From Acidimicrobiales bacterium (GTDB taxonomy: Bacteria > Actinomycetota > Acidimicrobiia > Acidimicrobiales > MedAcidi-G1): 45,265 nucleotides of DNA. The position numbers and the translations under genes are program-made. The stretch is taken from contig JAAZXC010000007.1 of assembly GCA_014240365.1 (NCBI GenBank), positions 1 through 45,265 on the forward strand, written 5' to 3'. This document shows positions 7,780 through 37,138 of the stretch, one piece after another; within the stretch, counting starts at the first letter, position 1; the number at the start of each line of letters is the position of its first letter. Under the pieces are notes generated by a model. It saw only the letters and a list, made by a program, of their open reading frames with translations. It was not told the DNA's origin and searched no databases.

Positions 7780-7928
7780 GGCCAGAGAGTACCTGAAAAA
7801 CACCTTGCTAGAAAGATATCTACTCGCGCCGAAGGCACGGTGGCGAGTTCTCCCCGGCAGGCAGCCGCCATTACGGTCCACATGGCATAGCGACATCGAC
7901 CCGCCCGAGAGCCCAGGAGGACCCACAC
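7780..7928. promoter_or_regulatory. divergent promoter region between marR and hydrolase, with palindromic AGATATCT
   Basis: This 149-base gap separates two head-to-head genes and is the expected location of an autoregulated MarR operator. It contains the perfect 8-base palindrome AGATATCT at 7814-7821, inside the AT-richer stretch TTGCTAGAAAGATATCTACT, the only such stretch nearby. The half-site spacing is MarR-like, but the flanks are not symmetric. A purine-rich CCCAGGAGGACC upstream of the ATG at 7929 is the hydrolase's ribosome binding site. No clear -10/-35 pair was identified. Confidence 0.4.
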
Positions 7929-9034: not shown

Positions 9035-10297
9035 TCAGTCGGCGTTCGGCTGCCGGGAAAGGGCCTGCAGCGTGGCCAGGTCGAAGCCTGCCAGTTCCTT
9101 GTAGGCATTCGCGGCGCGTTCCAGATCTCCAATGGGCACGCAGGTGTGGTGGTCCCGGCACGTTCCACCACAACGATCCCGCACCCACTGCATCACCCGC
9201 TCAGGCCCGGCCTGCCGGTTGGCCAGCACCAGGCGACTGGTCGTCTCCCGACGGGCATCTTCGTATGCCTCCAGGGCGACGGGTACGTCGACGTCCGCCG
9301 ACAGGGCATCGGCAAGTGCCTCGCCATCCAGGACGGCCTGGCTGGCTCCATTGCTCCCGTTGGGTCGCATCGGGTGGGCGGCGTCGCCCATAAGCGTCAC
9401 CCGGCCGTCGCACCACCGGTCCAGCGGATCCCGGTCCACCATGGGGAACTCGTAGGCCACCTCCGTCGACGCCAGCAACTCGCCCACGTGGATCCACCCG
9501 AAGTCCCAGTCGGCGAACCACGGCGCTATTTCACCCGGGTCCACCGCTGCGTTCCAGTCAGCGGTTGCCACGTCAAGGTCTACAGGCCGCTCCGCCACCC
9601 AGTTCGTCAGGACGGTTCCTCCCGCCTCAAGGGGTCCCCGGATCGGATAGACGACGGCCTTCTGAAGGTCGTGGCCCGCCATGAACATGGTCCTGCCATC
9701 CAGGAACGGAGGTGCCTCCACAGCTCCGCGCCACAGCACCAGGCCCGAGTAGCGGGGCGGCCCCTCATCGGGGGCGAACGAGCCTCGGAGCACGGAATGC
9801 AGGCCGTCGGCGCCGACGAGTACCTCTCCCGCATATTCCCCGACAGGGCTACCTGAGCGTCGGTCCACAAAGCGGGCCAGCACCCGGTCGCTGTCCTGTT
9901 CGAAGCCATCAAGGTGGTGGCCGGTCAGGACACGATCGGCCCCGAGGACCCGTCGGGCGGCCTCAAGCAGGAGCATCTGTAGACGTCCGCGGTGCATCGA
10001 GTACTGGGGCCACGGGCTTCCGGCATCCAGGCCGCGGGGCTCGGACCAGATCGGCACGCCGTCGTCTGTGCAGAACCTCAGTTCGGAGGTTGCCACGGCG
10101 GCTGTTGAGAGTTCCGCTTCCAGCCCCAGGTCATGGAGCACCCTCACAGAATGGGGAAGGAGGTTTATCCCCACGCCCAGCTCCCGTGGTTCGGTCACTG
10201 ACTCAAAGACCGTCACGTCGTGACCGGCCCGGTCCAGGCACAGCGCAGCACTGAGGCCACCTATACCGCCGCCGGCGATGAGGACCCGACGTCCCAT
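9035..10297 (-). CDS. FAD-dependent monooxygenase (salicylate hydroxylase/PhzS-like)
   Basis: A single-component flavoprotein hydroxylase of 420 residues that would use NAD(P)H and O2 on an aromatic or heterocyclic substrate. The Rossmann motif G-G-G-I-G-G is at residues 9-14, the D-G motif G-A-D-G at 162-165, and the FAD ribityl motif G-D-A-A-H-P-M at 304-310 is followed by P-N-G-S-N-G-A-S-Q-A, as in PhzS-like phenazine monooxygenases. The gene starts two bases after the stop of the Old Yellow Enzyme gene and precedes the YCII gene, so it is the third gene of a transporter-reductase-monooxygenase-YCII operon. The cysteine-rich C-terminal segment (C-G-G-T-C-R-D-H-H-T-C) is notable. Substrate not identified. 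Confidence 0.88.
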   Translation of the reverse strand: MGRRVLIAGGGIGGLSAALCLDRAGHDVTVFESVTEPRELGVGINLLPHSVRVLHDLGLEAELSTAAVATSELRFCTDDGVPIWSEPRGLDAGSPWPQYSMHRGRLQMLLLEAARRVLGADRVLTGHHLDGFEQDSDRVLARFVDRRSGSPVGEYAGEVLVGADGLHSVLRGSFAPDEGPPRYSGLVLWRGAVEAPPFLDGRTMFMAGHDLQKAVVYPIRGPLEAGGTVLTNWVAERPVDLDVATADWNAAVDPGEIAPWFADWDFGWIHVGELLASTEVAYEFPMVDRDPLDRWCDGRVTLMGDAAHPMRPNGSNGASQAVLDGEALADALSADVDVPVALEAYEDARRETTSRLVLANRQAGPERVMQWVRDRCGGTCRDHHTCVPIGDLERAANAYKELAGFDLATLQALSRQPNAD

Positions 10298-20344: not shown

Positions 20345-21160
20345 TCAATCCGCGTTTGTGGGCAGCAGCATCGCCAGTTGCCGGGACCGGGCTATGAGGG
20401 TTCCCTCGGCGTCCCAAAGCCAGCCGTCCTCGACCATACGGCCGTCTCGGAGGTCCTCGGTAACGAACCTTCCCAGCATCCAACCCGGGGCGGGCCTGGC
20501 CCTCACGTGCACGGTCAGCTCGATGGTCGGGACCCATCCGACACGGCCCAGCAGGGCGAAGATGGAAGGGGCGAACGCATCGGAGAAGAGGACGGCCGCC
20601 AACGTGTCAGGGGGTCGACCGTCCGCGAACCGGATCCACCCCCGGGTCTCGGCAGTGTCGGAGGCACCCGCTTCGGACATGGACGGATGGACCCGGAGAT
20701 CCACCCGGCTGGATATGAAGAGGCTTACGCCCTGTTCGAGCAGGTCGCGCTCCACGCACTCCTCCGGGGGAGGCATGTCCATCGGAGCGATGGTCATGCT
20801 CGGTCCCCCGTCCGACACCCTGCCCAGGTCCCCCATGGCCGCCACCACCTCGAGACGCTGCCTACCGTCCTGGACGAGGCTGGCACGAGCTGTCGTGACC
20901 GACCGTCCGGCTCGGATGGTCGAGACGCTCAACTCCCCGGGGCAGTCCCCAGATCCGGGCCTCAGGAAGTGGGTTGTGACAGATATCGGATCCTGGTGGT
21001 GTCCCAGGCTCCGAAGGCCCTGCAGGGCAATTGCCGTCAGATACCCCCCGTTGGGGTTGTCTCCGATGTTCCAGCAATCGCTGACATCAACGGCGAAGCG
21101 GCCCTCCCCAAGTGGAACCAGGGCCGTCTCACGGTCCAGGTCGTACCCGAGCCCACTCAT
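20345..21160 (-). CDS. acyl-CoA thioesterase family protein (double hotdog)
   Basis: A 271-residue protein with two hotdog domains. The first contains N-P-N-G-G-Y-L-T-A-I-A-L-Q-G-L, the central helix of TesB-like/4HBT_3 thioesterases, and S-V-T-T-H-F-L-R-P. The second contains A-A-V-L-F-S-D-A-F-A-P-S-I-F and closes with G-R-F-V-T-E-D-L-R-D-G-R-M-V-E-D-G-W-L-W-D, a nearly constant C-terminal motif. It would hydrolyse acyl-CoA to acid and CoA in the cytoplasm. The ATG overlaps the stop of the M20 peptidase gene (ATGA). It converges with the crotonase gene, so both strands around here deal with acyl-CoA compounds. Confidence 0.88.
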   Translation of the reverse strand: MSGLGYDLDRETALVPLGEGRFAVDVSDCWNIGDNPNGGYLTAIALQGLRSLGHHQDPISVTTHFLRPGSGDCPGELSVSTIRAGRSVTTARASLVQDGRQRLEVVAAMGDLGRVSDGGPSMTIAPMDMPPPEECVERDLLEQGVSLFISSRVDLRVHPSMSEAGASDTAETRGWIRFADGRPPDTLAAVLFSDAFAPSIFALLGRVGWVPTIELTVHVRARPAPGWMLGRFVTEDLRDGRMVEDGWLWDAEGTLIARSRQLAMLLPTNAD

Positions 21161-22500
21161 CCCAACATGTCCCTGCAGACGTCCATGTACAGGTCAGTCG
21201 TGAGCCGCAGTGACTCCACGTCGATCCGTTCGTCGTGGCCGTGGAACCGTCGGGCGAACTCGCCACCGCTGATGCCGGGACTGAGCAGCCCCGCCCCGTA
21301 GGCGACCGACCCCATCTCCCGGTAGACCCGGGCGTCGGTGAAGCCCACGATGAACTGGGGGTTCAACCGGGCCGACGGAAATGGCTTCGTCACTGCCCGC
21401 TCCAGGGCATCCCAGAGTGGCGTGTCGATCCTGCTCGACGATGCCGCGTCGTCCATGATCACCTCAACCTCGACGTGGTCGGCCAGGTCTCCGAGGGCTT
21501 CGTGGAGGTGGGCCGCCACCTCCTCGGTGTGGTCGCCGGGCATGGTCCGGATGTCGACGTCGATGCTCACCCGGTCGGGAATCACGTTGGTCTTGCCGGG
21601 CCCATCTCCCACATTCGGCGAGAAGGTCGTGTGTGTACATGCATGCAGGTGGCCTGCGGTGCCTGCATGGGGGACGTCAGCCAGAAAGGCATCCACGCGG
21701 TCCTCGTCCATGAGTTGGTCGCGTGCCTCGTCAGGGAGGCCCATCGATTCGACCTGTGCCCGCCAGAGTTCGTGGAACCTCGGCTGCGGTTGGTACTCGG
21801 CGAGACGTTGGACCACGGCGGCGGCTTTCACGAGTGCGTTGTCGGACCTGTATGGCATCGAGCCGTGTCCCGGTGTTCCCCTCACGGTCAGGCGCCTCCA
21901 GGAGGCGCCCTTCTCTGCCACGTTCACGCTGATGACCGGTGCGAACTCCGTGCCGGCGTGGAGGCCGCCGTTCTCAGTCAGGACGTAGTCGGCTCTGATG
22001 GCGTCAGCCTCGTTGTCGGCCATCCACCGCGCTCCATGAACACTCCCGGACTCCTCGTCGGCCACTGCGAAGAAGATCAGATCGCCCCGGGGGCGAAACC
22101 CGCTGTCCGCCAGAGAGCGCATCACGACCGCCTGGCTGGCCGTGATGTTCAACATGTCCACCGCGCCACGGCCCCAGACCTCGCCGTCCACGAGCTCCGC
22201 AGCGAACGGGTCGCGGCTCCACCCGTCGACGTTGACCGGCACCACATCGGTGTGGCCCATAAGGCAGAGCGACGGAGCCGACGGATCGAATCCCTCGATC
22301 CTCGCCACGAGCGAGGTCCGCCCGGGGGTCGGCTCGAAGCTCTGGACGTCCAGTCCCGAGCCCCCCAGGTAGGACGCCAACAGGTCGGCGTTACGTACCT
22401 CCTGGCCTGATTCGGGTGTGCCGTCATTGACGCAGGCGTTGCGGATCATAGCCTGGAGCAGATCCACGGTCTGGCTGGTCAGGTCATCGCTACCGGTCAT
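21157..22500 (-). CDS. M20-family metallopeptidase/amidohydrolase
   Basis: A 447-residue zinc hydrolase of the ArgE/DapE/carboxypeptidase G2 group. Zinc ligands and catalytic residues are visible: H83 in M-G-H-T-D-V-V-P, D115 in G-R-G-A-V-D-M-L-N, the E-E pair at 149-150 (A-D-E-E-S-G), and a later H in the C-terminal G-G-E-F-A-R-R-F-H-G-H. A dimerisation domain occupies roughly residues 200-330. The start at 22500 (M-T-G-S-D-D-L) lies seven bases after the upstream sulfatase stop; the open frame continues to 22875 but only inside the sulfatase gene. Likely substrates are N-acyl amino acids or dipeptides; coupling to the thioesterase and sulfatase does not resolve which. Confidence 0.9.
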   Translation of the reverse strand: MTGSDDLTSQTVDLLQAMIRNACVNDGTPESGQEVRNADLLASYLGGSGLDVQSFEPTPGRTSLVARIEGFDPSAPSLCLMGHTDVVPVNVDGWSRDPFAAELVDGEVWGRGAVDMLNITASQAVVMRSLADSGFRPRGDLIFFAVADEESGSVHGARWMADNEADAIRADYVLTENGGLHAGTEFAPVISVNVAEKGASWRRLTVRGTPGHGSMPYRSDNALVKAAAVVQRLAEYQPQPRFHELWRAQVESMGLPDEARDQLMDEDRVDAFLADVPHAGTAGHLHACTHTTFSPNVGDGPGKTNVIPDRVSIDVDIRTMPGDHTEEVAAHLHEALGDLADHVEVEVIMDDAASSSRIDTPLWDALERAVTKPFPSARLNPQFIVGFTDARVYREMGSVAYGAGLLSPGISGGEFARRFHGHDERIDVESLRLTTDLYMDVCRDMLG

Positions 22501-22507
22501 CGAATCG

Positions 22508-24796
22508 TCACTGCATCTCGGCGGCGGCAGCCAGCTCCATGGCTGCCTCCTCTTCGGGCCGGAAGGCCCTGGTGGTTCCGATCTCCACCCGGGCCAGGTG
22601 ACCGGCGAACGGAAATGGTGCCTCGTAGGCGCCGCTGACTCCCGTCGGGTTGCGACCAATGTCCATGCCGATGGATGAGACCATGACCGGCACCAGCGGG
22701 ACGATGGAATCGGCCACCTGTCGGCCGTCCACCAGCAGGCGGGCTCGTCCGGGGCCGCGCCGCACACGGTCCTGGTGCACCTCCAGGACGCTGGCTCCGG
22801 CCGGGACCGGTTCCGGTGAACGCACCACGGTGTGGTGCGAGTAGGCGTTGTGGTCGTAGACGAGGTGCCCACCATGGTCCACGTAGACCACCAGGCCGCA
22901 GTTCACGGTGCCGAATGCCAGCAGGACACCGGCCTCGTCCCCGACCGGCCGCTCCAATTCGAATCGCATCGTCCAGCTCCGCGAGCCCAGGGCTGGTGCG
23001 GAATCCATCGGAACCCGTGGGGTCGGCGGCAGGTATACGAACCGGTCGCGCGCCCGCGGAGTGCCGGCCGTGTGGTGGCCGGCGAACAGGGCCTTGGACT
23101 GATCCATGATCGGCAGTACCTGGTACCGCTCGGCCTCCTCCCAGAACATCTGGACCAGATCCGCCAGTCGATCCGGTTGGTCGGCCGCCAGGTCGTGGCA
23201 CTCCGAGAAGTCCTCGTCCAGGTGGTACAGCTCCCACACATCGTCATCCAGGGACGTCTCGGGCCGGTGGAAGGCCACCGCCTTCCAGCCCTCGGCCCAG
23301 ATCGCCCGATGTCCGAACATCTCGAAGTACTGGCGTTCCTTGCGTGTAGGGACGGCGGTTGCATCCTCGGCACCCGGCTGGAACGTATAGGAGATGCTGG
23401 TGCCCTCTATGGGTTGCTGGGCGACCCCGGCAATCTCATCGGGGGCGACGACCCCCACCAGTTCGAGGAGGGTTGGCGCCAGGTCGATCACGTGGTGGAA
23501 CTGGGTTCGCAGCTGTCCCTGCGCTATGGCATCGATACCGCCCGGCCACGAGATGATCAGCGGGTCCCGGATTCCACCGGAATGCGTGTTCTGCTTGTAC
23601 CGCTTGCCGGGCGTGTTGCCGACCTGCGCCCACCCCCACGGATAGTTGGTGCTGCTGGTACGGGTCCCGATGTCCTCCAATCGCTCCAGGGCCTCGTCCA
23701 GGGGCTGGTCGACGTCGTTGAAGTGGCGGAACGAGTCCAGCACGCCGAGGGCCCGGCCCTCCTGCGAGGCCCCGTTGTCGCTGAGCGCCACCACGATGGT
23801 GTCCTCGGTGATGGCCAACTCGTCGAGGGTGTCCAGCAGACGACCCAGCTGGGCATCGGTGTGGTCGAGCATCGCGGCGAAGGCCTCCTGGAGACGACAG
23901 GCCACCGCCTGTTCCTCGGTCGAAAGGTCGGCCCACGCCTCGACTCCCGGATTCCGGGGGGCGAGATGGGTGCCGGGTGGGATGACCCCCATCTCCAGCT
24001 GGCTCTCGTAGACCCGCTGGCGGGCCACGTCCCAGCCCTCGTCGAAGCGTCCGCGCCACTTCTCCAGGTAGTCGTCCGGCGCCTGGTGGGGGGCGTGGGT
24101 GGCCCCGAAGGCCAGGTACAGGAAAAAGGGTCGCTCGGGCACCATCGTGTGCTGGGTGCGAACCAGGTCGATGGCGTGGTCGAGGAGGTCCTCGGTGACG
24201 TGATAGCCCTCGGCGGGATAGCTGGGCTGGTCGACCAGGCGGTTGTCCTCGTACAACTCCGGATGAAACTGGTCGGTCTCGCCCTGCATGAAGCCGTAGT
24301 AGCGGTCGAAACCCCTCTGGAGGGGCCAGTCTCCGAAGGGACCCACCGCCGAGGCCTCCCGCATGGGAGCGAGGTGCCATTTGCCCACGGCCCACGTAGC
24401 GAAACCCTCCCCGCGCAGCATCTCGGCCATGGTCCCGGCGGAGCGGGCGATACGGCCCCGCATGTTGGGATAGCCGGTATCGAAGTTGGACAGGCCCCGC
24501 ATGCCCACCGAGTGGTGGTTGCGACCCGTGAGGAGACATGCACGCGTGGGCGAGCAGAGCGCCGTCGTGTGGAAGTTGGTGTAGCGAAGGCCCCGTTCGG
24601 CCAGACGGTCGTAGTTCGGGGTGTCGACCAGCCCGCCGTAGCAACCCAGGTGGGCGAAGCCCGTGTCGTCGAGAAGCACCACGACCACGTTCGGCGTGCC
24701 GGTAGCCGGCAGGACGGGTTCGGGCCACCACGGGGTGGACTCGCTGGTGGCGCGACCGATGACCTGGTCGCCCTGGGTTGTTGCGGGTTCCGTCAT
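22508..24796 (-). CDS. large arylsulfatase (AslA-like, 762 aa)
   Basis: A type I sulfatase with C81 in C-S-P-T-R, the formylglycine site, D43-D44 in V-V-L-L-D-D-T-G, and downstream G-K-W-H-L and S-D-N-G metal/active-site motifs. The catalytic domain covers about residues 35-560. The remaining ~200 residues, including R-F-E-L-E-R-P-V-G-D-E-A-G-V-L-L-A and a final beta-rich part, form the extra C-terminal domain of the long sulfatases. No signal peptide is seen, although such enzymes are often exported, so location is uncertain. It is only distantly similar to the sulfatase at 15233-16669. It is followed by an M20 hydrolase and a thioesterase. Maturation enzyme is not in this window. Confidence 0.92.
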   Translation of the reverse strand: MTEPATTQGDQVIGRATSESTPWWPEPVLPATGTPNVVVVLLDDTGFAHLGCYGGLVDTPNYDRLAERGLRYTNFHTTALCSPTRACLLTGRNHHSVGMRGLSNFDTGYPNMRGRIARSAGTMAEMLRGEGFATWAVGKWHLAPMREASAVGPFGDWPLQRGFDRYYGFMQGETDQFHPELYEDNRLVDQPSYPAEGYHVTEDLLDHAIDLVRTQHTMVPERPFFLYLAFGATHAPHQAPDDYLEKWRGRFDEGWDVARQRVYESQLEMGVIPPGTHLAPRNPGVEAWADLSTEEQAVACRLQEAFAAMLDHTDAQLGRLLDTLDELAITEDTIVVALSDNGASQEGRALGVLDSFRHFNDVDQPLDEALERLEDIGTRTSSTNYPWGWAQVGNTPGKRYKQNTHSGGIRDPLIISWPGGIDAIAQGQLRTQFHHVIDLAPTLLELVGVVAPDEIAGVAQQPIEGTSISYTFQPGAEDATAVPTRKERQYFEMFGHRAIWAEGWKAVAFHRPETSLDDDVWELYHLDEDFSECHDLAADQPDRLADLVQMFWEEAERYQVLPIMDQSKALFAGHHTAGTPRARDRFVYLPPTPRVPMDSAPALGSRSWTMRFELERPVGDEAGVLLAFGTVNCGLVVYVDHGGHLVYDHNAYSHHTVVRSPEPVPAGASVLEVHQDRVRRGPGRARLLVDGRQVADSIVPLVPVMVSSIGMDIGRNPTGVSGAYEAPFPFAGHLARVEIGTTRAFRPEEEAAMELAAAAEMQ

Positions 24797-27382: not shown

Positions 27383-28075
27383 TCAGGTCGTTTCCCCGTC
27401 GGGTGCGGGCCTGCCGTTCAGTTGGCCGGGCCCGCGGGCCCAGAAGGCCACGTGTCCGGGAACCGTCTGGCTGGATGCCGCATTGTCGGGGATGGGCTCC
27501 CCGACCGCCACACCGATCGGGATCAGGCCCGCCCATGCCGGATCGTCGACGTCATCCGGGTCATCCACCGGGCCGCCGGTCCGGACCTTCAGGGAGCACT
27601 CGGCCAGCGGAAGTGTCAACACGGTGGTGCCCGTCACCTCGATGTCGTGGGCCGCACGGACCTGGGACGTCCTGCCGGGAATGGTGTGCTCGACGAGACG
27701 GTCGAGAGCAGCCACCTTCTCAGCATGGTCGATCACCTCTGTTGCCCGACCCATGATGACGATCGATCGGTAGTTCATGGAGTGGTGGAGACCTGAGCGG
27801 GCCAGCACCAGGGCATCCAGGAGAGTGACCGTCACGCAGACATCTACGCCGCCCTTCGCTGTACGCAGCAACCGGCTTGCCGGTGAGCCATGGAGAATGA
27901 GTCGCTCGCCGTCACGGGCGTACAGCATCGGGATGACCACAGGGTGGGCCTGGTCTCCCGTGCCGGCCACCAATCCAACGTGGGCCATGAGACCCTCGTC
28001 CAACACGTCGTGGATGGCATCGCGGTCATCTACCGCCCGTTCGGGCTTCCGCCGAAGATCGGTCCTGCCAGTCAT
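27383..28075 (-). CDS. pyridoxamine 5'-phosphate oxidase-family split-barrel protein
   Basis: A 230-residue FMN-binding split-barrel protein. The core [28 protein letters not shown] (about residues 44-71) and [25 protein letters not shown] (about 87-110) are typical of the Pyridox_ox_2 group. These often handle flavin or deazaflavin, not pyridoxal. It overlaps the PhzF stop by ATGA and stands two bases before glpK. Within the operon it could act as a reductase or antioxidant-type enzyme; the substrate is unknown. Confidence 0.85.
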
Positions 28076-28869
28076 ACCAGGAGTGTCCCACGGACCACGG
28101 TCACAGCGCTGCCCGTGAGATGCACCCGATCGTCGATCAACTCGACGTGGATCAGACCACCGCGCTCCGACACCTGCTCAGCAAGGAATGCAAACCCCAG
28201 GCGAGGTGCCCACCAGACGGCGAGCGTCGTGTGGGCTGAGCCGGTCACCGGGTCCTCAGGGACGCCGGTGTTCGGACCGAAGACCCGTGACACCACCTCG
28301 GCCACATCTCCGACGTCGGCCGCAGCGGTGATGATCACAGCCCGATCCGCCAACTCGGCCAGGAGGCCCAGGCCCGGAAGACAGGATCGAACATCCGAAG
28401 CCGACCGGAGTTCGATCACCAGGTCGGTCAGGCCCCTCCCTGCCGCTACCGCCTGAATGCCCAATGCCGTCACCATCTCCGTGGTGACCGGCACCCGGGT
28501 CACATCGTCGGCTGGAAAGTCCAACCGGATTCCGTCATCGACCTGGATCGCCGTCAACCGGCCCGAGCGGGTGTGGAAGCCCATCTCGCCGGTCACCCCG
28601 TACTCGCTGACGAGGGCATGTGCCGTGGCCAGCGTTGCGTGGCCGCACAGGTCCACCTCGGTCGTCGGCGTGAACCAGCGGAGGCCCCACTCGCCTGCGG
28701 CATAGCCCGCCGGATGGCAGAACGCCGTCTCCGACAGGTTCATCTCCCTGGCGACATCCTGCATCCATTTCTCGTCGGCTGGCCCTTCAAGGACGAATAC
28801 GGCTGCCGGGTTGCCCCGGAACGCCTCCTCGGTGAACGCGTCTACCTGGACGAATGCGGTATTACCCAT
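28072..28869 (-). CDS. PhzF-family isomerase/epimerase-like protein
   Basis: A 265-residue protein of the PhzF/diaminopimelate-epimerase-like fold. The start V-D-A-F-T-E-E-A-F-R-G-N-P-A-A-V is diagnostic. E47 in N-L-S-E-T-A-F is the catalytic glutamate of PhzF; D-L-C-G-H-A-T-L at 73-80 and E-D-P-V-T-G-S-A-H near 209-217 form the two anion-binding loops. PhzF isomerises a dihydro-anthranilate in phenazine synthesis, but most relatives are of unknown function and no other phz genes are present. It opens an operon of four genes ending with the sterol desaturase-like enzyme. Confidence 0.9.
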   Translation of the reverse strand: MGNTAFVQVDAFTEEAFRGNPAAVFVLEGPADEKWMQDVAREMNLSETAFCHPAGYAAGEWGLRWFTPTTEVDLCGHATLATAHALVSEYGVTGEMGFHTRSGRLTAIQVDDGIRLDFPADDVTRVPVTTEMVTALGIQAVAAGRGLTDLVIELRSASDVRSCLPGLGLLAELADRAVIITAAADVGDVAEVVSRVFGPNTGVPEDPVTGSAHTTLAVWWAPRLGFAFLAEQVSERGGLIHVELIDDRVHLTGSAVTVVRGTLLV

Positions 28870-30017: not shown

Positions 30018-30971
30018 TCAGGCCTGGACAGTTCCCAGGTGCGTGGTGGGGTCCGACGGGGCCTCGCCCAACCAATTCGTTCGCCACACCTCTGCGGTCA
30101 CACGTCCCACGTCCACCTTCCGCGGCTCGAAACCGTCAACCGCCTCAAGAAGCGGTTCCACCACCACCCGATGGTTTGGCACCACGAAAAAGGGAGCGCT
30201 GTAACGGTCGGTTCCCACCGGGCTGGCGACCCGGTGGGGGGTGGACACCACCCGACCACCCGACCAGACCTCCAGGAGGTCGCCCACGTTCACCAGCAAC
30301 GTGCCTTCGGGGCACCCCGCATCCGTCCAGGCGCCGTCTCGTGACCGAACCTCGAGCCCCCCGACCGGATCAGGATCCAGGATGGTCACCACGGTTATGT
30401 CCTTGTGCGGGTGGAATCCCGGCGCCGGATCGTCGGGTCGACGCTGCGGGTAGTGGAGCAGCGTCACGTTGGTGAGGGGCGCCGGCCTCGTCGAGGCCAA
30501 TGTCTGCCCGTCCAGCCCGAGGACACCTGCCAGGTCATCGACCAGCCGGCATGCCAGGGCGTCCATGGCCGCCCACCAGGAGCCCACCACGGACGCCATC
30601 TCCGGCAGGTGGTCGACCCAACGATTGGACCCGTAGAGCGCACATTCCGCGCGCACCGGATGGTCGGGCGGACACTCCCAGTGGAGCTTGTACCCCTCGA
30701 AGGCATCCGATGGATCCGTCCCGGCCCGGTTGGGCGAAAAGAACCGCAGAGGGATGAATCCCCGGTAGTCATCCCGGCTGACGGTCTGCTGACGTTTTGC
30801 ATCCTCACCGATGGCGAACAGGTCAACCAGGAGGCGCCGCATCGCTGCAAGGTCCTGCTGCGGTACACCGTGTCCGCGGACAGCTACGAAGCCGACGTCC
30901 GAAAGTGCGTTGGCGATCCCGGAGTCGTCGCCGAGGTCGACGACCGGCACGCCCAGCGGGCGCGTGTTCAC
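30018..30971 (-). CDS. isopenicillin N synthase-like 2-oxoglutarate/Fe(II) oxygenase
   Basis: A 317-residue member of the IPNS/gibberellin-oxidase superfamily. The N-terminal V-P-V-V-D-L and V-R-G-H-G-V-P form the DIOX_N part; H189 and D191 in H-P-H-K-D, H246 in T-P-H-R-V and R256-x-S258 are the iron and 2-oxoglutarate ligands. Such enzymes hydroxylate, desaturate or cyclise small molecules. The GTG at 30971 overlaps the stop of the M24 gene (GTGA) and is preferred over the in-frame extension to 31151, which lies inside that gene. It is the last gene of a four-gene overlapping cassette that also contains an unrelated PhyH-type dioxygenase. Confidence 0.88.
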   Translation of the reverse strand: MNTRPLGVPVVDLGDDSGIANALSDVGFVAVRGHGVPQQDLAAMRRLLVDLFAIGEDAKRQQTVSRDDYRGFIPLRFFSPNRAGTDPSDAFEGYKLHWECPPDHPVRAECALYGSNRWVDHLPEMASVVGSWWAAMDALACRLVDDLAGVLGLDGQTLASTRPAPLTNVTLLHYPQRRPDDPAPGFHPHKDITVVTILDPDPVGGLEVRSRDGAWTDAGCPEGTLLVNVGDLLEVWSGGRVVSTPHRVASPVGTDRYSAPFFVVPNHRVVVEPLLEAVDGFEPRKVDVGRVTAEVWRTNWLGEAPSDPTTHLGTVQA

Positions 30972-32179
30972 CCGAGGATGGGTAGTTCGGCCGGTGCTCG
31001 GCGGGACAGCAACTCGGGGCCATCGGAGCGGATCACAAGGTTCTCTTCGTGGACCATCATCTTGCCCGGCGCCCACGTAAGCCCCGGTTCGAGGGTCATG
31101 ACCATCCCCTCGACCAGCACGGTGCCGTCGTCGGCTGTATTGGATGGCCATTCGGTGACCTGCATTCCCAGGCCGTGCCCGAGGCGACCCACCGAGTTGC
31201 CCAGCGAACCACCGGCATCAAGCACGTCGGCCATGGCACGCCACAGGTCGCTCGTAGTGGCCCCCGGAAGCGCCGCTGCCAGTCCGGCCTCGGTGGCGGC
31301 CCAGACCGTCTCGTAGGCCCGCTGGGCGTCGTCGTCGGCTCGACCGAAGGCCACATAGCGGTCGAAGTCGCTGGAGTAGCCGTCGAAAATCGATCCTGTG
31401 TCGAACATGAGCAGGTCGCCCGCCCGGATCTCGCGGTCGGACGGTTGCCTGATGATGTCATCGAAACCCGGTCCTGAGGCCCCCACCAGATACGGGACAT
31501 CGTCTGCTCCGCGCCGCAGCAGGTCGATGCGGAAGGCAGCGAACGCCTCGCGTTCTGTCATACCCGTGGACAGCAGGTCACCCAGGCCCTCGAAAGCGCC
31601 TGACACCACATCGCAGATGTGTGCCACCTTCTGGACCTCTCGTGGAGACTTGACCATTCGCAAGGAGCGGACGATGTCCGTGGCGTCCACGAAGGTCGCT
31701 GGAGCGATCCGGTCCCGTAGGGCATCCAGGTCAGCCAGCGGCATCCGGACGTGGGTCTCGTGACCCATCGGCAGGCCGATCCGCCCTGACGGATCGACCT
31801 GTCGGCCGGCAACCTCCATCAGGGTGTCAACCAGCAACTCAAGACCATCGTCGACCGGGCGGGGCGCCGGCCACGTACGCACGTCGTCGATCCATGTAGC
31901 GGTCATGGAAGAGGCGCCGATAGCAGGAATCACAGCGATTGGCTTGCCGTCGACTGGAAGCACCACGAACCACGGACGCGTCGGGCTCTGCCAGAACGGT
32001 GTATGGAAGCCGGTCAGGTAGCGCACCTCCGGTTCGGTGCAGACCAGCATGGCGTCGAGGTGGCGTTCCGCCAGCATCTGCTGTGCCCGCTTCGTCCGGG
32101 CCTCGAATTCCTCTGGGGGAAAGCCCCGCTCGGGCAGCGGCACCTCGGGAGCACCGGCCACGCTGCTCAGGCTGGTCAC
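30968..32179 (-). CDS. M24-family hydrolase (Xaa-Pro peptidase/creatinase/EutD-like)
   Basis: A 403-residue pita-bread-fold protein. The N-terminal domain contains C-T-E-P-E-V-R-Y-L-T-G-F near residue 47-58. The metal ligands D260 and D271 (F-D-T-G... Y-S-S-D), H335 in G-H-G-L-G-M, E364 in L-E-P-G and E378/E379 in H-E-E-N-L are all present, as in metal-dependent members. Creatinases and ectoine hydrolases (EutD/DoeA) share this fold. The GTG at 32179 overlaps the stop of the racemase gene (GTGA). In ectoine catabolic clusters an M24 enzyme sits beside a maleate-isomerase-type EutA, as here, which is the basis for suggesting cleavage of a cyclic amidine or N-methylated amino acid; a plain peptidase remains possible. 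Confidence 0.85.
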   Translation of the reverse strand: MTSLSSVAGAPEVPLPERGFPPEEFEARTKRAQQMLAERHLDAMLVCTEPEVRYLTGFHTPFWQSPTRPWFVVLPVDGKPIAVIPAIGASSMTATWIDDVRTWPAPRPVDDGLELLVDTLMEVAGRQVDPSGRIGLPMGHETHVRMPLADLDALRDRIAPATFVDATDIVRSLRMVKSPREVQKVAHICDVVSGAFEGLGDLLSTGMTEREAFAAFRIDLLRRGADDVPYLVGASGPGFDDIIRQPSDREIRAGDLLMFDTGSIFDGYSSDFDRYVAFGRADDDAQRAYETVWAATEAGLAAALPGATTSDLWRAMADVLDAGGSLGNSVGRLGHGLGMQVTEWPSNTADDGTVLVEGMVMTLEPGLTWAPGKMMVHEENLVIRSDGPELLSRRAPAELPILG

Positions 32180-32964
32180 CCCTCCAACCCGAGGGCGAAC
32201 AGGCGCCCCATCCCGTCGATCGCATCGTCGATACCAGCCAGGCGCAGTAGGTGCCAGCCGAATGCGAGGTTGCTGGACACCACCGCCACGCCCAACTCGG
32301 CCTCGAGTGCTCCGGCGATGCCGTAGGCCCGCAGACTGGTGCACGACACGAACACAGCATCGACCCGGCGGTCAGCGCTGCCATCAGCAGACGCGACCAA
32401 CCGGCGAACAGCGTCGGCCACCGAGGCCTCGGTGATGCGGGCCACGGTGGCATCGCTCTCTTCGAGGAAGGATCCGACGGCCACCACCTCCAGCCCATGG
32501 CCGGTCAACAGATCCACGATGCCGCCGGTGACCTCTGCGTTGTAGGGCGTCACCACGGCGACACGGACGGCACCGAGGGCGGCCATGGCGGCCAGGACTG
32601 CCGTGATCGGGTTGGTGTTCGGTATGTCGGGGTGGGCTCGCCGGACTGCCTCTGCTACTCGGTCCTCACCGATCAGCGTGGCGGCCGACGTGCAGCCATA
32701 ACCGATCACGTCGAAGCCCATGCGCACGGGCAGTAGCGCCGCCGCCTCTGGGATCCGGGCCTCCATCGCCAGCAGGGTCTCGGCGGTGACCCGATCCTCC
32801 ATGGGGATGCGGGTGGCGAAGGCTGCGACCCCCTCGGGCCACAGCGACGAGAGCTCGGCCTCGACGGTCTGGTCATTCTCGAGCACCACGATCCCGATCC
32901 GGGCGCGCTGGCCGAATCCGTTGTCAGTGGCAAACGGCAACTGCTGCAGGTCCATCGATGTCAT
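32176..32964 (-). CDS. Asp/Glu racemase-superfamily protein, maleate isomerase/arylmalonate decarboxylase type (EutA-like)
   Basis: A 262-residue two-domain protein with one cysteine in each half: C91 in G-Y-G-C-T-S-A and C208 in V-S-C-T-S-L-R-A, the two active-site positions of the Asp/Glu/hydantoin racemase, maleate isomerase and arylmalonate decarboxylase group. P-N-T-N-P-I-T-A-V and R-V-A-V-V-T-P-Y-N are typical of the maleate isomerase branch. The ATG at 32964 overlaps the stop of the PhyH gene, and its own stop overlaps the M24 start. EutA of ectoine catabolism belongs to this branch. The reaction here is not established: cis-trans isomerisation, racemisation or decarboxylation are all open. 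Confidence 0.85.
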   Translation of the reverse strand: MTSMDLQQLPFATDNGFGQRARIGIVVLENDQTVEAELSSLWPEGVAAFATRIPMEDRVTAETLLAMEARIPEAAALLPVRMGFDVIGYGCTSAATLIGEDRVAEAVRRAHPDIPNTNPITAVLAAMAALGAVRVAVVTPYNAEVTGGIVDLLTGHGLEVVAVGSFLEESDATVARITEASVADAVRRLVASADGSADRRVDAVFVSCTSLRAYGIAGALEAELGVAVVSSNLAFGWHLLRLAGIDDAIDGMGRLFALGLEG

Positions 32965-33851
32965 ACCGGGTCCCCCTGGGCCTGCTGATCGAAGAACGAC
33001 GCGGTGGTCGGCTTCTCTCCGAGGGCCATCTCGTAGGACGACGCCCTGACCCGACCGGTGGCCACGCCCCGAACCACCTCGCCCTCGTGGATGCTCGGCA
33101 GGTGGTTGGGGTGCAGGATCCGGCTGTCCTCGGACCGGTAGCTGAAGATGGCCAGGGTCCGAGGGTGCTCTGCCAGATTCGCTGCAGAACCGTGCACTAG
33201 TCGGGTGTGCATCAGGCATGCGCTGCCGGCCGAACCGAAGCAGGCCACCGGCTCGCCGAGGCCAGCCAGGTCCCTGTCAGCGATAGTGCCAGTGAATACG
33301 CCGTCCTGCCAGTGGTCGAAGATGGGGCCCCGATGGGTGCCCGGCAGGACCTCCAACGGCCCGTTGTCCAGCGTCACGTCGTCGACGAACAACAGCGCTG
33401 CCAGCATGTCGTCGTTACTGTGCGCTTCATAGGCGAGGTCCTGGTGGAACCGCACGGTGGTACCGACTCCCGGCTGCTTACAGTTGGTTTTGACGTTGTT
33501 GACAGCCAGGTTGGGCCCCACCAACTGGGCCGCAGCGTCGACCAGCGGACTGTCCCGCATGATCCGGAGGTGCACGTCGCACACCTCCTGTGGTGAAGCC
33601 ACCCGGCGCAGAGCCGGATGCTCAGCGCTGTGGCCGGGCTGGACGTCGAAGCGTCCCCTCCCGTCCATCGTCGTGCCCCACGGAGCCACATGGTTGCGGC
33701 TCTCCTCGACCCAACCCCCGATCACCGCCTGCAGGTCAGCGAGGTCGTCAGCCGGCACTGCCCCGTCCAGCACCAGGTAGCCGTCACGCCAGAACGCTTC
33801 GACCTGTTCACTGTTGAGGGGGTCCATCGAGGCAGATCTTTCCACGCTCAT
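32961..33851 (-). CDS. phytanoyl-CoA dioxygenase (PhyH)-family oxygenase
   Basis: A 296-residue 2-oxoglutarate/Fe(II) oxygenase of the PhyH family. Iron ligands are H136 and D138 in F-H-Q-D and H220 in V-H-G-S; R231 is the probable 2-oxoglutarate ligand. It lacks the ectoine hydroxylase (EctD) F-x-W-H-S-D-F-E-T-W-H signature, so it is not EctD. ATG at 33851 follows a GGGGGG-containing leader; an internal ATG at 33827 is an alternative. It is the first gene of the four-gene cassette, and coupling to the racemase and M24 genes implies that its product or substrate passes to them. The family also hydroxylates amino acids and small lipids. Confidence 0.88.
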   Translation of the reverse strand: MSVERSASMDPLNSEQVEAFWRDGYLVLDGAVPADDLADLQAVIGGWVEESRNHVAPWGTTMDGRGRFDVQPGHSAEHPALRRVASPQEVCDVHLRIMRDSPLVDAAAQLVGPNLAVNNVKTNCKQPGVGTTVRFHQDLAYEAHSNDDMLAALLFVDDVTLDNGPLEVLPGTHRGPIFDHWQDGVFTGTIADRDLAGLGEPVACFGSAGSACLMHTRLVHGSAANLAEHPRTLAIFSYRSEDSRILHPNHLPSIHEGEVVRGVATGRVRASSYEMALGEKPTTASFFDQQAQGDPV

Positions 33852-33949: not shown

Positions 33950-36040
33950 TTACAGGTGCTGGAGAAGGCGTCGGGCGTCCAGCAGGGCCGACGCTACGTC
34001 CCGGGAGGCTACGCAGTCCCCCACTCGGTAGAGCAGATAGCCGTCGGTGGACCCACTATCGGAGGTCGAACCGGGGTTCACCCTGAAGGCCGGCTGGGAG
34101 TCGCCTGCGGCAAGAGCAACCAGGTCGACTACCCCGGTATTGGCAGATCCGTCCCGCAGCGACAGGTACAGGTGCTCGTCCGGCACCACGCCGTGTTCCA
34201 CGACCACCGCATCGACCGCGTGAACGACCTCGTCGCCGGTGTACTCGTTGCGCAGCACTGCTCGTAGCGCCGAACCCTCTCCCTCTACGGATTCGACCCC
34301 AACCAGCCGGTGGTCGGAGATCATGACCACCCCTGAGCCGTAGAGCATCCGGAGGTAGGCCGGCCCGAGCGGGGTGGCCAGGTCGAGGCCGACGTGGCGG
34401 TCCGGGGTGACCAGTTCCAGACCAGACACCCGGCGATCGAGGGACTCGGTGACCAACAACTCCACCACGGCCAAACCACGCTCGTCCCCGTGGTCGTCAT
34501 AGACCAGAACCCGTCCCCCGGGTCGGACCTGCCCACCGAGGACATCCCATGACGTGGCCACCAGCTCTGCGCCTGACTCCAGATAGTTCACCTCAGGCCT
34601 GCCTCCGGTGGCCACGACGACCACATCCGGCGCTTCGACCAGTACGGCCTCGGCGTCAACCGGCGTGCCGAGCCGCACGTCGACCCCGACGAGCTCCACC
34701 TCGGAGATCAGCCAGTCGACGAGGCTGGCCACTTCCCGCTGGCGCTCGGCGGCCCGAGCCATAAGCGCCAACTGTCCGCCGAGACGGTCCTGGGCCTCGA
34801 ACAGGACCACGTCGTGGCCCCGTTCGGCACATGTCCGGGCCGCCTCCAGGCCAGCCGGTCCACCACCCACCACCACGACCCGCCGACGCGAAGCCGTCGA
34901 ACGCACCACCAGTTGAGGAACTGTTGCCTCACGCCCGGTCGCCGGATTCTGGATACATACCGAGTCCAGACCCAGGTGAAGTCGGTTGATGCAGAGCGAG
35001 GCACCGACACAAGTACGGATGCGGCCGGCTTCTCCTCGCTTCAGCTTGGCCACTAGATGCGGATCGGCGAAGTGGGCCCGGGTCATCCCCACCAGGTCCA
35101 CGGCACCAGACTCCACAGCGTGACGGGCGCTAGCCAGATCGGTAATTCGGGTGGCGTGCAGGATGGGTACGTCGACCACCCGGCGCACAGCAGCGGCCAC
35201 AGGGAGGTAGGGCGCCAGCGGCGTTCCGGCTGGCGGTATGGCTTTCGAAAGGCCATCGTCGGTGGACAGCGCTGGTCCGGCGATATTTAGGAAGTCCAGC
35301 AGGCCTGAGGTGGCGAGGGTCACGGCTATCTCACAGCAATCCTCCTCATCAAGGCCGCCCAGCTGATCCTCAGTGCCCAACATCCGCAGGCCGACCAACA
35401 AACGGCCATCAGCCGCTGTCTGGACTGCTTCGAGAACCTCCATGGTTAGTCGAAGTCGGTTGCCTAACGACCCTCCGTACCCGTCGGTACGAAAGTTCAC
35501 CAGCGGTGACCAGAACTGGTCCAAGAGGTGACTGGTGGCCAGCAACTCGATCCCGTCCAGGCCCGCCGACGCCGCCCGGCGGGTCGCATCAGCGAAGTCT
35601 CCGACTACCCGCCGGATGTCGGACCGCTCCATCTGCTTCGGCCAGAACCGATGCATGGGCTCGCGAACCGGCGACGGCGCGATGGTCGGGAGCCAGTCGC
35701 CGTCGTTCGAGACGTTCCGCCTACCCATATGGGTGAGCTGGCACATGACCGCCGCTCCGTGCTGGTGGATCCGTTCGACCATGGCCGCCAGGGGTTCGAC
35801 GATGGCCTCGGTCCCGAAGTTCAACTGCCCCCACAGCGACGCCGAGTCCACCGACACGTTCGACGACCCGCCGATCATTGTGAGACCGATTCCACCCTTC
35901 GCCTTCTCCTCGTGGTACCGCACGTACCTCTCGCTGGGCGTGCCGTCGGTGTTGTAACCCGGGGAGTGGCTGCTGGAGAAGATCCGGTTGCGAAGGCGGA
36001 GGCCTCCGAGTTCGAACGGTTCGAGCAGGGGGTCGGTCAC
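33950..36040 (-). CDS. N-methylproline demethylase-like FMN/FAD/4Fe-4S oxidoreductase
   Basis: A 696-residue enzyme with the layout of 2,4-dienoyl-CoA reductase, trimethylamine dehydrogenase and the proline-betaine/N-methylproline demethylases. Residues 1-350 form an OYE-type FMN barrel. Cysteines in R-T-C-V-G-A-S-L-C-I-N and the following V-C-I-Q-N-P-A-T-G-R-E would hold a [4Fe-4S] cluster. Residues 390-690 are FAD/NAD domains with V-V-V-G-G-G-P-A-G-L-E. The stretches K-G-G-I-G-L-T-M-I-G-G-S, L-L-D-Q-F-W-S-P-L-V-N and H-A-T-R-I-T-D resemble the N-methylproline demethylase branch most. It would oxidatively remove an N-methyl group. Its ATG overlaps the sulfotransferase remnant's stop, and it lies just downstream of the cysDNC operon and before the EutA/EutD-like cassette. 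Confidence 0.85.
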   Translation of the reverse strand: MTDPLLEPFELGGLRLRNRIFSSSHSPGYNTDGTPSERYVRYHEEKAKGGIGLTMIGGSSNVSVDSASLWGQLNFGTEAIVEPLAAMVERIHQHGAAVMCQLTHMGRRNVSNDGDWLPTIAPSPVREPMHRFWPKQMERSDIRRVVGDFADATRRAASAGLDGIELLATSHLLDQFWSPLVNFRTDGYGGSLGNRLRLTMEVLEAVQTAADGRLLVGLRMLGTEDQLGGLDEEDCCEIAVTLATSGLLDFLNIAGPALSTDDGLSKAIPPAGTPLAPYLPVAAAVRRVVDVPILHATRITDLASARHAVESGAVDLVGMTRAHFADPHLVAKLKRGEAGRIRTCVGASLCINRLHLGLDSVCIQNPATGREATVPQLVVRSTASRRRVVVVGGGPAGLEAARTCAERGHDVVLFEAQDRLGGQLALMARAAERQREVASLVDWLISEVELVGVDVRLGTPVDAEAVLVEAPDVVVVATGGRPEVNYLESGAELVATSWDVLGGQVRPGGRVLVYDDHGDERGLAVVELLVTESLDRRVSGLELVTPDRHVGLDLATPLGPAYLRMLYGSGVVMISDHRLVGVESVEGEGSALRAVLRNEYTGDEVVHAVDAVVVEHGVVPDEHLYLSLRDGSANTGVVDLVALAAGDSQPAFRVNPGSTSDSGSTDGYLLYRVGDCVASRDVASALLDARRLLQHL

Positions 36041-36411
36041 CCGACGACCACCCTGTGGGCCAGCAGCGCTTCGTAGTGGGGGGTACTGCGCTCCAGCATC
36101 TCGACGAGCCTCTGGTCACCGTCGAGCGGCGGATACTCGGTGGTGGGTCGGCTGATCCCCGTGCTGGCACGAAGGTCGTCGTGCCAAGGCTCAGCGCCCT
36201 CGCCGTACCAGCCCACCTCGGGCCGCTCACCCGCCTCCCAGGAGAGCGCCTCGGCCAGGAAGGGGATGCCCACGGCTGCACAGTACGCACGGATTGTGTC
36301 TTCCAGCAGGTCCAGTAGGTCGTCAGACGGGATTACCACCGGCGGCGCCCTGAAGCCGACCTGATGCGGGAACAACTTGAAACCCGGATCAGACCACCTT
36401 GCGGGCTTCAT
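36037..36411 (-). pseudogene. sulfotransferase-like C-terminal remnant (124 aa)
   Basis: Only the C-terminal half of a bacterial sulfotransferase-like protein is present. P-P-V-V-I-P-S-D-D-L-L-D near residue 24-35, then T-I-R-A-Y-C-A-A-V-G-I-P-F, A-L-S-W-E-A-G-E-R-P-E-V and W-H-D-D-L-R-A-S-T-G-I-S match the last ~110 residues of that family. The N-terminal P-loop-like PAPS-binding part and about 20 residues before P-P-V-V-I seem to be lost. The open frame extends upstream into the cysC end (36564), but no family motif is found there. The stop overlaps the flavoenzyme ATG (ATGA), so the fragment may still be translated. Its place beside PAPS synthesis genes suggests an old sulfation gene. Family assignment is moderate, from motif memory only. 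Confidence 0.55.
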
Positions 36412-36454
36412 GGAGGCGGTGTCTAGCAGGTCGCTCCTGGTGCCGACAGGCCTG

Positions 36455-36474
36455 CTGACCGGCCTGCCGGTCGG
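36455..36474 (-). terminator. hairpin between cysC and the sulfotransferase remnant
   Basis: An eight-base stem (CTGACCGG with CCGGTCGG, one G-T pair) closes over a CCTG loop in the gap following cysC. It is a possible attenuator or weak terminator for the cysDNC transcript; there is no T-run, so factor-independent termination is not assured. Confidence 0.35.
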
Positions 36475-36523
36475 TCTCCGGGGCAGAGATGAGAACGGCT
36501 CCACACCCCGGCAGGGAGTGCCA

Positions 36524-37138
36524 TCAGACTCCCGGGCTGGCCACGTGTTCCAGGATCGCCGCAACGCACTCCTCTAGTGGGCGGGTGCTGTCCACCGTCA
36601 TGTCCGGGGCCTCCGGCACCTCGTACGGCGCCGAGATGCCGCTGAACTCCGTGATCTCGCCCGCCCGGGCCCTGGCGTACAGGCCCTTCACGTCACGTTC
36701 CTCACAAAGTTCCAGCGGCGTGTCGACGAACACCTCGACGAACGCACCTTCGGGGTGGAGGGCCCGGACGGCGTCGCGGTCTGCCCTGTACGGCGAGATG
36801 AAGGCACTCAGGACCACCAGGCCGGCATCCTGGAACAGCCGGCATACCTCGCCGATGCGTCGGATGTTTTCGGTGCGGTCCGCCGGTGAGAACCCGAGGT
36901 CACGATTCAGTCCGAACCTCACGTTGTCGCCATCGAGCACGTAGGCGGCCACGCCCCGGGCCACAAGGGCCTCCTCCACGGCAAAGGCCAGCGTGGACTT
37001 GCCGGAGCCCGACAGGCCGGTGAACCAGACGGTGCGTCCGGCGTGGCCGAGCATCGAGGTCCTGTCAGCGGCGGCGACCCGCCCCTCGGCCCTCAGGATG
37101 TTCGTCGAGACCGGATCAGCGGCCGGCAGGTCAGGCAT
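36524..37138 (-). CDS. cysC: adenylylsulfate kinase (stand-alone)
   Basis: The enzyme phosphorylates adenosine 5'-phosphosulfate to PAPS. The 204-residue protein has the P-loop G-L-S-G-S-G-K-S at 41-48, L-D-G-D-N-V-R, and A-F-I-S-P-Y-R containing the serine of the canonical family. [22 protein letters not shown] completes the signature. The ATG overlaps the end of cysNC by eight bases, so it is coupled to it. It is a second APS kinase beside the domain fused to CysN; the two belong to different sequence types. The duplication suggests high PAPS demand or separate tasks. Confidence 0.92.

Follow-up and report, generated by a model that had tools for sequence, protein, structure and literature searches.

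Which reactions are carried out by a gene cassette in which a EutA-like racemase and an M24-family hydrolase stand between two 2-oxoglutarate (2OG) oxygenases? This question is raised by positions 30,018 to 33,851 of contig JAAZXC010000007.1 (GenBank assembly GCA_014240365.1) of an Acidimicrobiales bacterium, a stretch of 45,265 nucleotides that we analysed as a whole and refer to as the window. The genome holding it (G000; G, L, C and f numbers are our handles for genomes, loci, contigs and families) comprises 2.2 Mb in 192 contigs and is 95% complete. We found that three of the four genes, those for the PhyH-family oxygenase, the racemase and the M24 hydrolase, form a conserved core, and that the four-gene unit is a local form. 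We see an even chance that this core is a catabolic module that parallels the EutA/EutD/EutE half of hydroxyectoine use but takes another small substrate with a carboxylate group. That substrate would most likely be either a cyclic amidine or a diamino or hydroxy amino acid carrying an N-acyl group. In transcription order, the cassette genes are:

32961..33851, minus strand: PhyH-family Fe(II)/2OG oxygenase, core gene 1 (296 amino acids; HxD at 136, H220, R231; PF05721)
32176..32964, minus strand: EutA-like racemase, core gene 2 (262 amino acids; cysteines 91 and 208; best model TIGR02990 EutA)
30968..32179, minus strand: M24-family hydrolase, core gene 3 (403 amino acids; D260, D271, H335, E364, E378, R68; PF00557 and PF01321)
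30018..30971, minus strand: IPNS-fold 2OG-Fe(II) oxygenase, accessory of the window's lineage (317 amino acids; PF03171 and PF14226)

The coordinates and order given for this overlapping cassette in the initial annotation were confirmed, as were its three 4-base overlaps, which can be read directly as ATGA (PhyH/racemase), GTGA (racemase/M24) and GTGA (M24/oxygenase).

Conservation of the core and its enzymes

To follow the genes through the order Acidimicrobiales, we searched 198 genomes, scoring only the best candidates of the first search, from which a weak copy can escape. The racemase (E<=1e-50) was present in 14 genomes and M24 (E<=1e-160) in the same 14 (G000, G027, G034, G077, G096, G106, G107, G118, G128, G139, G145, G156, G181 and G191). 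Beyond these cut-offs, the next racemase stood at 1.5e-25, and the next M24 was a 111-residue fragment in G175 (2.2e-42); the class V gene next to this fragment is interrupted by a stop, and the locus looks like one in decay. PhyH (E<=1e-40) occurred in 17 genomes, namely all 14 carriers plus G017, G054 and G138. Two random 14-genome sets would coincide with a chance of 1e-21 if independent, with kinship ignored; carriers and non-carriers are found within the same families (f1, f17, f18, f28 and f35). Because the racemase and M24 share 14 of 198 genomes, all with PhyH, and do so also in genomes that carry the genes on separate contigs, their association is more than chance. The three genes are contiguous in nine of the carriers, the window included; among the five split ones, M24 stands apart in G139, PhyH stands apart in G107, and the genes occupy three contigs in G077, G145 and G191.

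The closest public match, L039, comes from an uncultured Acidimicrobiaceae metagenome-assembled genome and has a racemase 91% identical to that of the window. In all six close loci (L039-L044), PhyH, racemase and M24 are contiguous and preceded by a gene for an OYE-family flavin oxidoreductase, which runs off the end of the contig in L041 and L042. The IPNS-like gene lies 3' in L039, L041 and L044 and is absent in L043, and the contigs of L040 and L042 end in M24. At E<=1e-40, this gene was detected in 10 of the 198 genomes (7 of the 14 carriers and 3 of the other 184), and among the loci inspected, the window, L039, L041 and L044 are the only ones with it immediately after M24. We thus rejected the four genes as a conserved unit; the conserved co-occurrence that the initial annotation had suggested checking holds for the three core genes and is looser for the IPNS-like one. 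In a search of plasmid DNA with the whole cassette, no record covered 80% of the query.

The racemase matched PF17645 (arylmalonate decarboxylase, a family to which EutA is related) above cut-off, with 89.7 bits, and its best NCBIfam model was EutA, at 172.6 bits below the equivalog cut-off of 318. Residues C91 and C208, which we take to be the catalytic cysteines of the EutA/maleate isomerase superfamily, were present in 29 of 29 rows of its clade and in the one EutA row shown; the protein would thus have the cysteine pair of that superfamily. As the initial annotation had proposed, it belongs with the EutA family and not with the common amino-acid racemases. In a quick tree that kept 96 of 118 rows (22 were dropped), the 29-row clade united it with the M24-linked racemases of L049, L072, L121, L135, L138 and L193. 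Leisingera EutA and the racemases of L139 and L195 fell outside, and the members of a second, large group have genes for D-amino-acid dehydrogenase in their vicinity. The L083 racemase (226-975), a member of the window's clade, overlaps a DoeA gene (975-2159) by one base.

The M24 protein matched PF00557 (130.6 bits) and PF01321 (creatinase N-domain, 55.8 bits) above cut-off, while its NCBIfam scores were all below cut-off (PepQ 108.7 bits against 630; DoeA_2 75.6 and EutD 65.4 bits against 613 or 575). A profile search of PDB ranked PepE (173.3 bits) before creatinase 1chm (102.4) and DoeA 6twj (87.1). Identity was 25% to Leisingera DoeA, 50-57% to eight proteobacterial relatives and 67-93% to the order members compared. 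Residues D260, D271, H335, E364, E378 and R68 were invariant in 31 rows. The first five are presumably the M24 metal ligands, and with all of them present the window protein would have the intact metal site of an M24 metallohydrolase; none of the five was found in three rows of the DoeA clade (Leisingera, G000 and Haladaptatus). R68 aligns with the arginine of YFGRKYG in the creatinase-like L246/L247, which we assume to correspond to the creatinase arginine that holds creatine's carboxylate, and the R68 loop is missing in L003, a PepQ-like paralog in G000.

In a careful tree of 52 rows, from which seven had been dropped (one duplicated row, one truncated copy and five rows that were long or distant, L195 included), the 34-row clade of the window M24 (100/99.9) was separate from the 12-row DoeA clade (100/99). 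A union of the window M24 and DoeA against six other M24 rows was rejected by the approximately unbiased test (p-AU 0.0004), with long branches among those six rows. Judged by its sequence, the window M24 is not EutD/DoeA: the low identity, the metal site kept unlike in DoeA, the higher PepQ score and the rejected union all speak against the EutD-like label it had been given.

The PhyH protein matched PF05721 with 83.9 bits, above cut-off, and its H136, D138, H220 and R231 were invariant in 8 rows. Its best PDB match was EctD (4mhr, 51 bits), although it reached only 57.8 bits with the EctD model TIGR02408, against a cut-off of 336.5. In the alignment with 4mhr, the positions that we take to be ectoine-pocket residues were replaced (Q to N, W to A, F to M and F to I), in agreement with the earlier view that this PhyH is not EctD. 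In the PhyH tree, the base of which is open, the copies of G017, G054 and G138 and second copies in G000, G077, G096 and G128 fall outside the groups holding most cassette copies.

Partners of the core and the proposed reactions

Of 563 plasmid records with an M24 match, we fetched the gene contexts of 14; genes in fetched loci were called by a GC3 heuristic, so boundaries are approximate and genes may be missed, above all in low-GC L137. Nine contexts encode an M24 at least 48% identical to that of the window (L119, L120, L121, L135-L139 and L193). Eight contain an enzyme of the diaminopropionate ammonia-lyase (DAPAL) type, which in L193 is annotated only as a pyridoxal phosphate (PLP)-dependent enzyme; with the cystathionine beta-lyase of L135 taken into account, a PLP lyase is present in all nine. 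An M20-family deacylase was found in eight (not L193), an Lrp regulator in seven and a racemase in five. On genome contigs, we found DAPAL-M24-racemase (L049), M24-DAPAL divergent from PhyH-racemase (L072, Granulosicoccaceae) and M24-racemase convergent with EutE (L045; 395.8 of 402.7 bits).

The other five contexts encode more distant M24 relatives. EhuBCDA lies directly before an M24 of the window's clade once, in Bosea (L192, 42% identity), followed by a second M24, a class V enzyme, M20 and Lrp. The unannotated L191 (43%) has Ehu-like ABC genes by labels assigned in this analysis. L140 (41%) has M20, a D-amino-acid dehydrogenase and KBL; L195 (33%) has EhuB with a racemase, cystathionine beta-lyase, a EutE-like gene, KBL and TDH; L194 (32%) has nothing relevant nearby. 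Among the nine closer contexts, the Vibrio cortegadensis plasmid p1 (L137) encodes M24, M20, DAPAL above the equivalog cut-off, RidA and BCCT, and a few kb off, a set of TRAP transporter, universal stress protein, gabT and succinate-semialdehyde dehydrogenase recalls ectoine clusters.

Within the order, a class V PLP enzyme of at least 68% identity adjoins M24 or the cassette in G106, G128, G027, G191, G034 and G118; unlinked copies (65-66%) occur in G027, G058 and G099, weaker ones in many genomes, and 42 of 198 genomes have a match at E<=1e-90. Of 40 genomes searched, 5 have a Met-gamma-lyase-like enzyme: in G181, G096 and G156 its gene is close to the cassette, and in G128 and G054 it adjoins a PhyH paralog. 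A BhcC-like enzyme adjoins the racemase in G107 (132.1 of 690 bits). Four M20 proteins, from this order or from proteobacterial clusters, scored 311-319 bits with DoeB2 (cut-off 550) and passed the general amidohydrolase cut-off. In G000, an M20-family gene about 7.5 kb downstream of the cassette (within 21157-22875; L039 also has it, 4.5 kb downstream) is a candidate deacylase only, and no deacylase or PLP partner is established for this genome.

DoeA (E<=1e-90) was found in 9 of 198 genomes, namely 8 of the 14 carriers (hypergeometric 5e-10, kinship ignored) and G054, which also has OYE, a PhyH paralog and a Met-gamma-lyase-like gene. The true DoeA of G000 lies on contig C150 (L230, 3558-4739, minus; 600.9 of 613 bits), and the tree separates it from the window M24, which we therefore rejected as this genome's ectoine hydrolase. 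An M20 deacetylase (acetylornithine deacetylase model 342.6 bits, cut-off 297.7) comes after it, one PhyH is divergent from it, and a second PhyH downstream and an Xsc gene also flank it; L230 thus appears to be an actinobacterial ectoine locus with its own oxygenases. Ectoine synthesis genes gave no match in G000, and none in control genomes either, so their absence is not established. With DoeA in 8 of 14 carriers, a clade racemase overlapping DoeA in L083 and Ehu genes near M24 relatives, the tie of the cassette to ectoine-type catabolism, which the initial annotation had seen, is likely.

Other loci with DoeA or M24 genes showed further arrangements. In L212 (G107) and L213 (G139), DoeA-EutE pairs have a cystathionine-gamma-synthase-like enzyme directly upstream (PRK08249 642.8 bits, cut-off 600, in G107), which perhaps replaces the usual transaminase route. 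In L248 (G096:C78), DoeA is divergent from PhyH, then come a further M24, which is DoeA-like (144.8 bits), and fragments resembling the racemase in two reading frames; M24, PhyH and racemase here make up a parallel set. Between DoeA and a 1200-amino-acid hydantoinase gene, L246 (~7769-7855, G128) and L247 (~9208-9297, G054) match the C-terminal 30 residues of the racemase (66% and 57%) in short stretches that may be left over from a racemase since lost; the creatinase-like M24 is in the same locus. The M24/PhyH/PLP theme recurs in L251 (G145:C186), where a DddP-like M24 (457.7 bits, cut-off 600) lies near PhyH and a cystathionine-gamma-synthase-like gene.

From the observed gene content, linkage, co-occurrence and conserved catalytic residues we infer the reactions, their order and the substrate class, the order because of which enzymes travel together. 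PhyH would hydroxylate a carbon next to the alpha carbon, and the two-cysteine racemase would invert a stereocentre. M24, with two metal ions and its N-terminal arginine on the carboxylate, would then hydrolyse a C-N bond, whereby the ring opens or an acyl part leaves. A deacylase of the M20 or EutE/DoeB type would free the amino acid, and a PLP enzyme would eliminate or cleave at the beta (or gamma) substituent; in Proteobacteria this would often be DAPAL, in the present order a class V, Met-gamma-lyase-like or BhcC-like enzyme. A beta-hydroxy or beta-amino product would account for the way in which DAPAL, BhcC-like, class V, cystathionine-lyase-type and KBL/TDH enzymes replace each other. 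The conserved residues of PhyH (H136, D138, H220 and R231), the racemase (C91 and C208) and M24 (the two-metal site) allow each reaction.

We favour this module because of the co-occurrence of its genes, DoeA in 8 of 14 carriers, the racemase/DoeA overlap of L083, EutE in L045, EhuBCDA in Bosea, the PLP lyase in 9 of 9 and M20 in 8 of 9 contexts, the intact M24 ligands and R68. Several points weigh against it. The racemase and M24 cut-offs were placed at score gaps after the lists had been seen, and the co-occurrence statistics ignore kinship. DAPAL (E<=1e-40) was found in 27 of 198 genomes and in none of the 14 carriers, and was rejected as the enzyme that ends the pathway in this order; G000 had no ortholog of the class V enzyme and none of the Met-gamma-lyase-like enzyme at the thresholds used. 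The PLP partners vary by lineage and may be unrelated neighbours. At E<=1e-40, EutE was detected in 3 of 14 carriers (G107, G139 and G145) and as a fragment at a contig end in G138, and had no match in G000; DoeA was missing at its threshold from 6 of the carriers. No transporter was found beside the cassette with EhuA/B/C and DctP/DctM references. These, like EutB, EutC and EutE, had no homolog in the window when single-sequence references were used at E<=1e-5, just as the initial annotation had noted for the Eut enzymes and an ectoine transporter.

Accessory genes and competing explanations

The fourth cassette protein matched PF03171 (76.3 bits) and PF14226 (DIOX_N, 46.9 bits) above cut-off, with 9ovh as its best PDB match (130.9 bits). 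True IPNS uses no 2OG. The HxD at 189, H at 246 and RxS at 256 are those of the 2OG type of the IPNS fold, a correction to the earlier IPNS-like label. Together with the following gene, 98 bases upstream of the cassette, it is an accessory of the window's lineage, the upstream gene likely so:

33950..36040, minus strand: OYE-family flavin oxidoreductase, likely accessory (696 amino acids; PF00724)

This protein matched PF00724 with 164.3 bits, its best NCBIfam model was mycofactocin-system OYE 2 (500.6 bits, cut-off 793), and only part of the gene resembles DNA of genes annotated hpbA; the N-methylproline demethylase-like label that it had carried was therefore not upheld. At 57% identity or more, it occurs in 7 of 198 genomes, 6 of them among the 14 carriers. 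In L039 (8061-9071) and L043 (8098-9114), a gene absent from the window lies between OYE and PhyH; it has no Pfam or NCBIfam match in L039, and WHHD and VVHRG stretches suggest another Fe/2OG oxygenase. Also on the minus strand of the window, a short open reading frame (36037-36564), downstream of an APS kinase gene, overlaps the OYE start by 4 bases and matches a sulfotransferase model (PF19798, 26.5 bits) only over the model's end; it is possibly a sulfotransferase remnant. PhzF-family and Pyridox_ox_2 genes (27383-28869, minus strand) overlap each other by 4 bases; this pair is also 3' of the cassette in L039, L041 and L043, where it may share the transcription unit.

The core could instead serve a variant of ectoine/5-hydroxyectoine catabolism, in which PhyH makes hydroxyectoine, M24 is a second, metal-dependent hydroxyectoine hydrolase, and the hydroxylated diaminobutyrate is deacetylated and cut by PLP enzymes. 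DoeA in 8 of 14 carriers, the EutA-family racemase, the EutE/DoeB2-like deacylases and Ehu-type transporters near relatives, and EctD as the best PDB match of PhyH are all consistent with this. So is the available part of a 2021 paper (PMC8739950), in which EutD opens hydroxyectoine and the EutABC steps are uncertain. However, DoeA opens hydroxyectoine in the bacteria studied, which would make a second hydrolase superfluous, PhyH is without the ectoine-pocket residues of 4mhr, 6 of 14 carriers are without DoeA, and M24 lies outside the DoeA clade; we consider this variant unlikely. The degradation of an N-methylated cyclic osmolyte, in which OYE and the oxygenases remove methyl groups before M24 opens the ring, seems more improbable still. 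It would fit with OYE upstream in L039-L044 and 3-6 kb from PhyH in G145 and G191, and with SoxA/GcvT-type genes, of which G191 has one near PhyH and Roseovarius L121 one near the racemase, but OYE is present in only 6 of 14 carriers, its best model is below cut-off, and the M24-linked clusters fetched have no common demethylase. Of the undescribed pathway for a cyclic or N-methylated osmolyte that the initial annotation envisaged, the N-methylated part is thus weakly supported, by the OYE and SoxA/GcvT-type genes near some PhyH copies.

Last, M24 might be an ordinary Xaa-Pro-type peptidase travelling with unrelated genes, as its intact metal site, its best NCBIfam match to PepQ and the PepE/PepQ chains at the top of the profile search would allow. 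Its profile is indeed nearer to Xaa-Pro dipeptidases, yet it scores far under the PepQ cut-off, forms its own well-supported clade, has an invariant R68 loop that is missing in the PepQ-like paralog of G000 and strictly co-occurs with the racemase and PhyH, which leaves this explanation with very little probability. The catabolic module acting on a different substrate remains the reading that we prefer. In its broader form, to which we assign somewhat less than an even chance, it would be a pathway common to Actinomycetota and Proteobacteria, unrecognised in the literature searched, for an ectoine-like cyclic amidine or an N-acyl beta-functional amino acid. In this pathway, priming of the substrate by a 2OG oxygenase and stereochemical adjustment by a EutA-type racemase would precede its opening by a metal-dependent M24 whose clamp on the carboxylate is creatinase-like, and PLP elimination would come last. 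Some marine Acidimicrobiia would have the pathway beside, and not in place of, true ectoine catabolism.

Comparison with known systems

Marine bacteria live on small nitrogen-rich solutes, many of which, with their pathways, are to our knowledge unknown. Its occurrence in Acidimicrobiia, roseobacters, Vibrionaceae and rhizobial plasmids suggests that the module has a substrate that is widespread, and it shows which enzymes to test. Proteins annotated as Xaa-Pro peptidase also include a distinct hydrolase clade, linked to a EutA-type racemase, that this label conceals. Solving the module would also bear on the role of EutABC in hydroxyectoine use, uncertain in the part of PMC8739950 available. 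Our literature searches, including hydroxyectoine with diaminopropionate ammonia-lyase, returned nothing naming this module at the level of search listings. The available portion of PMC5924519 sets out the proposed EutABC route and places the ectoine consumers then known only in Proteobacteria, and that of PMC13188858 maps EutD clusters, including tentative Gram-positive ones, and contains no diaminoprop, phytanoyl or Acidimicrob.

With the ectoine/5-hydroxyectoine cluster (eutABCDE-asnC-ssd-atf), the window has in common a EutA-family racemase and an M24-fold hydrolase, to which relatives of the cassette elsewhere add a deacylase, a PLP lyase, an Lrp regulator and an Ehu, TRAP or BCCT transporter. 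Unlike that cluster, the window has an M24 of another clade with an intact metal site, a core oxygenase and no EutB, EutC, EutE or ectoine transporter, the true DoeA being elsewhere in the genome; EutD and EutE side by side, as in ectoine utilisation clusters, were found neither in the window nor in G000. EctD shares with the window PhyH the family and the Fe and 2OG residues, but differs in model score and in pocket residues, which the window PhyH has not kept. Creatinase shares the M24 fold and, in L246/L247, the aligned loop arginine, whereas these creatinase-like rows read N, A, H, E, H at the five ligand positions and so are without three of the metal ligands that the window M24 retains. 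In the proteobacterial M24-M20-DAPAL-racemase clusters, such as those of Aliiroseovarius L138 and Roseovarius L121, the genes carry no annotation beyond Xaa-Pro peptidase, amidohydrolase, diaminopropionate ammonia-lyase and Asp/Glu racemase. Their M24 (52-54% identity) and racemase (47-49%) fall in the same tree clades as those of the window; M20 and DAPAL stand there in place of the window's PhyH, and L072 has M24, DAPAL, PhyH and racemase together.

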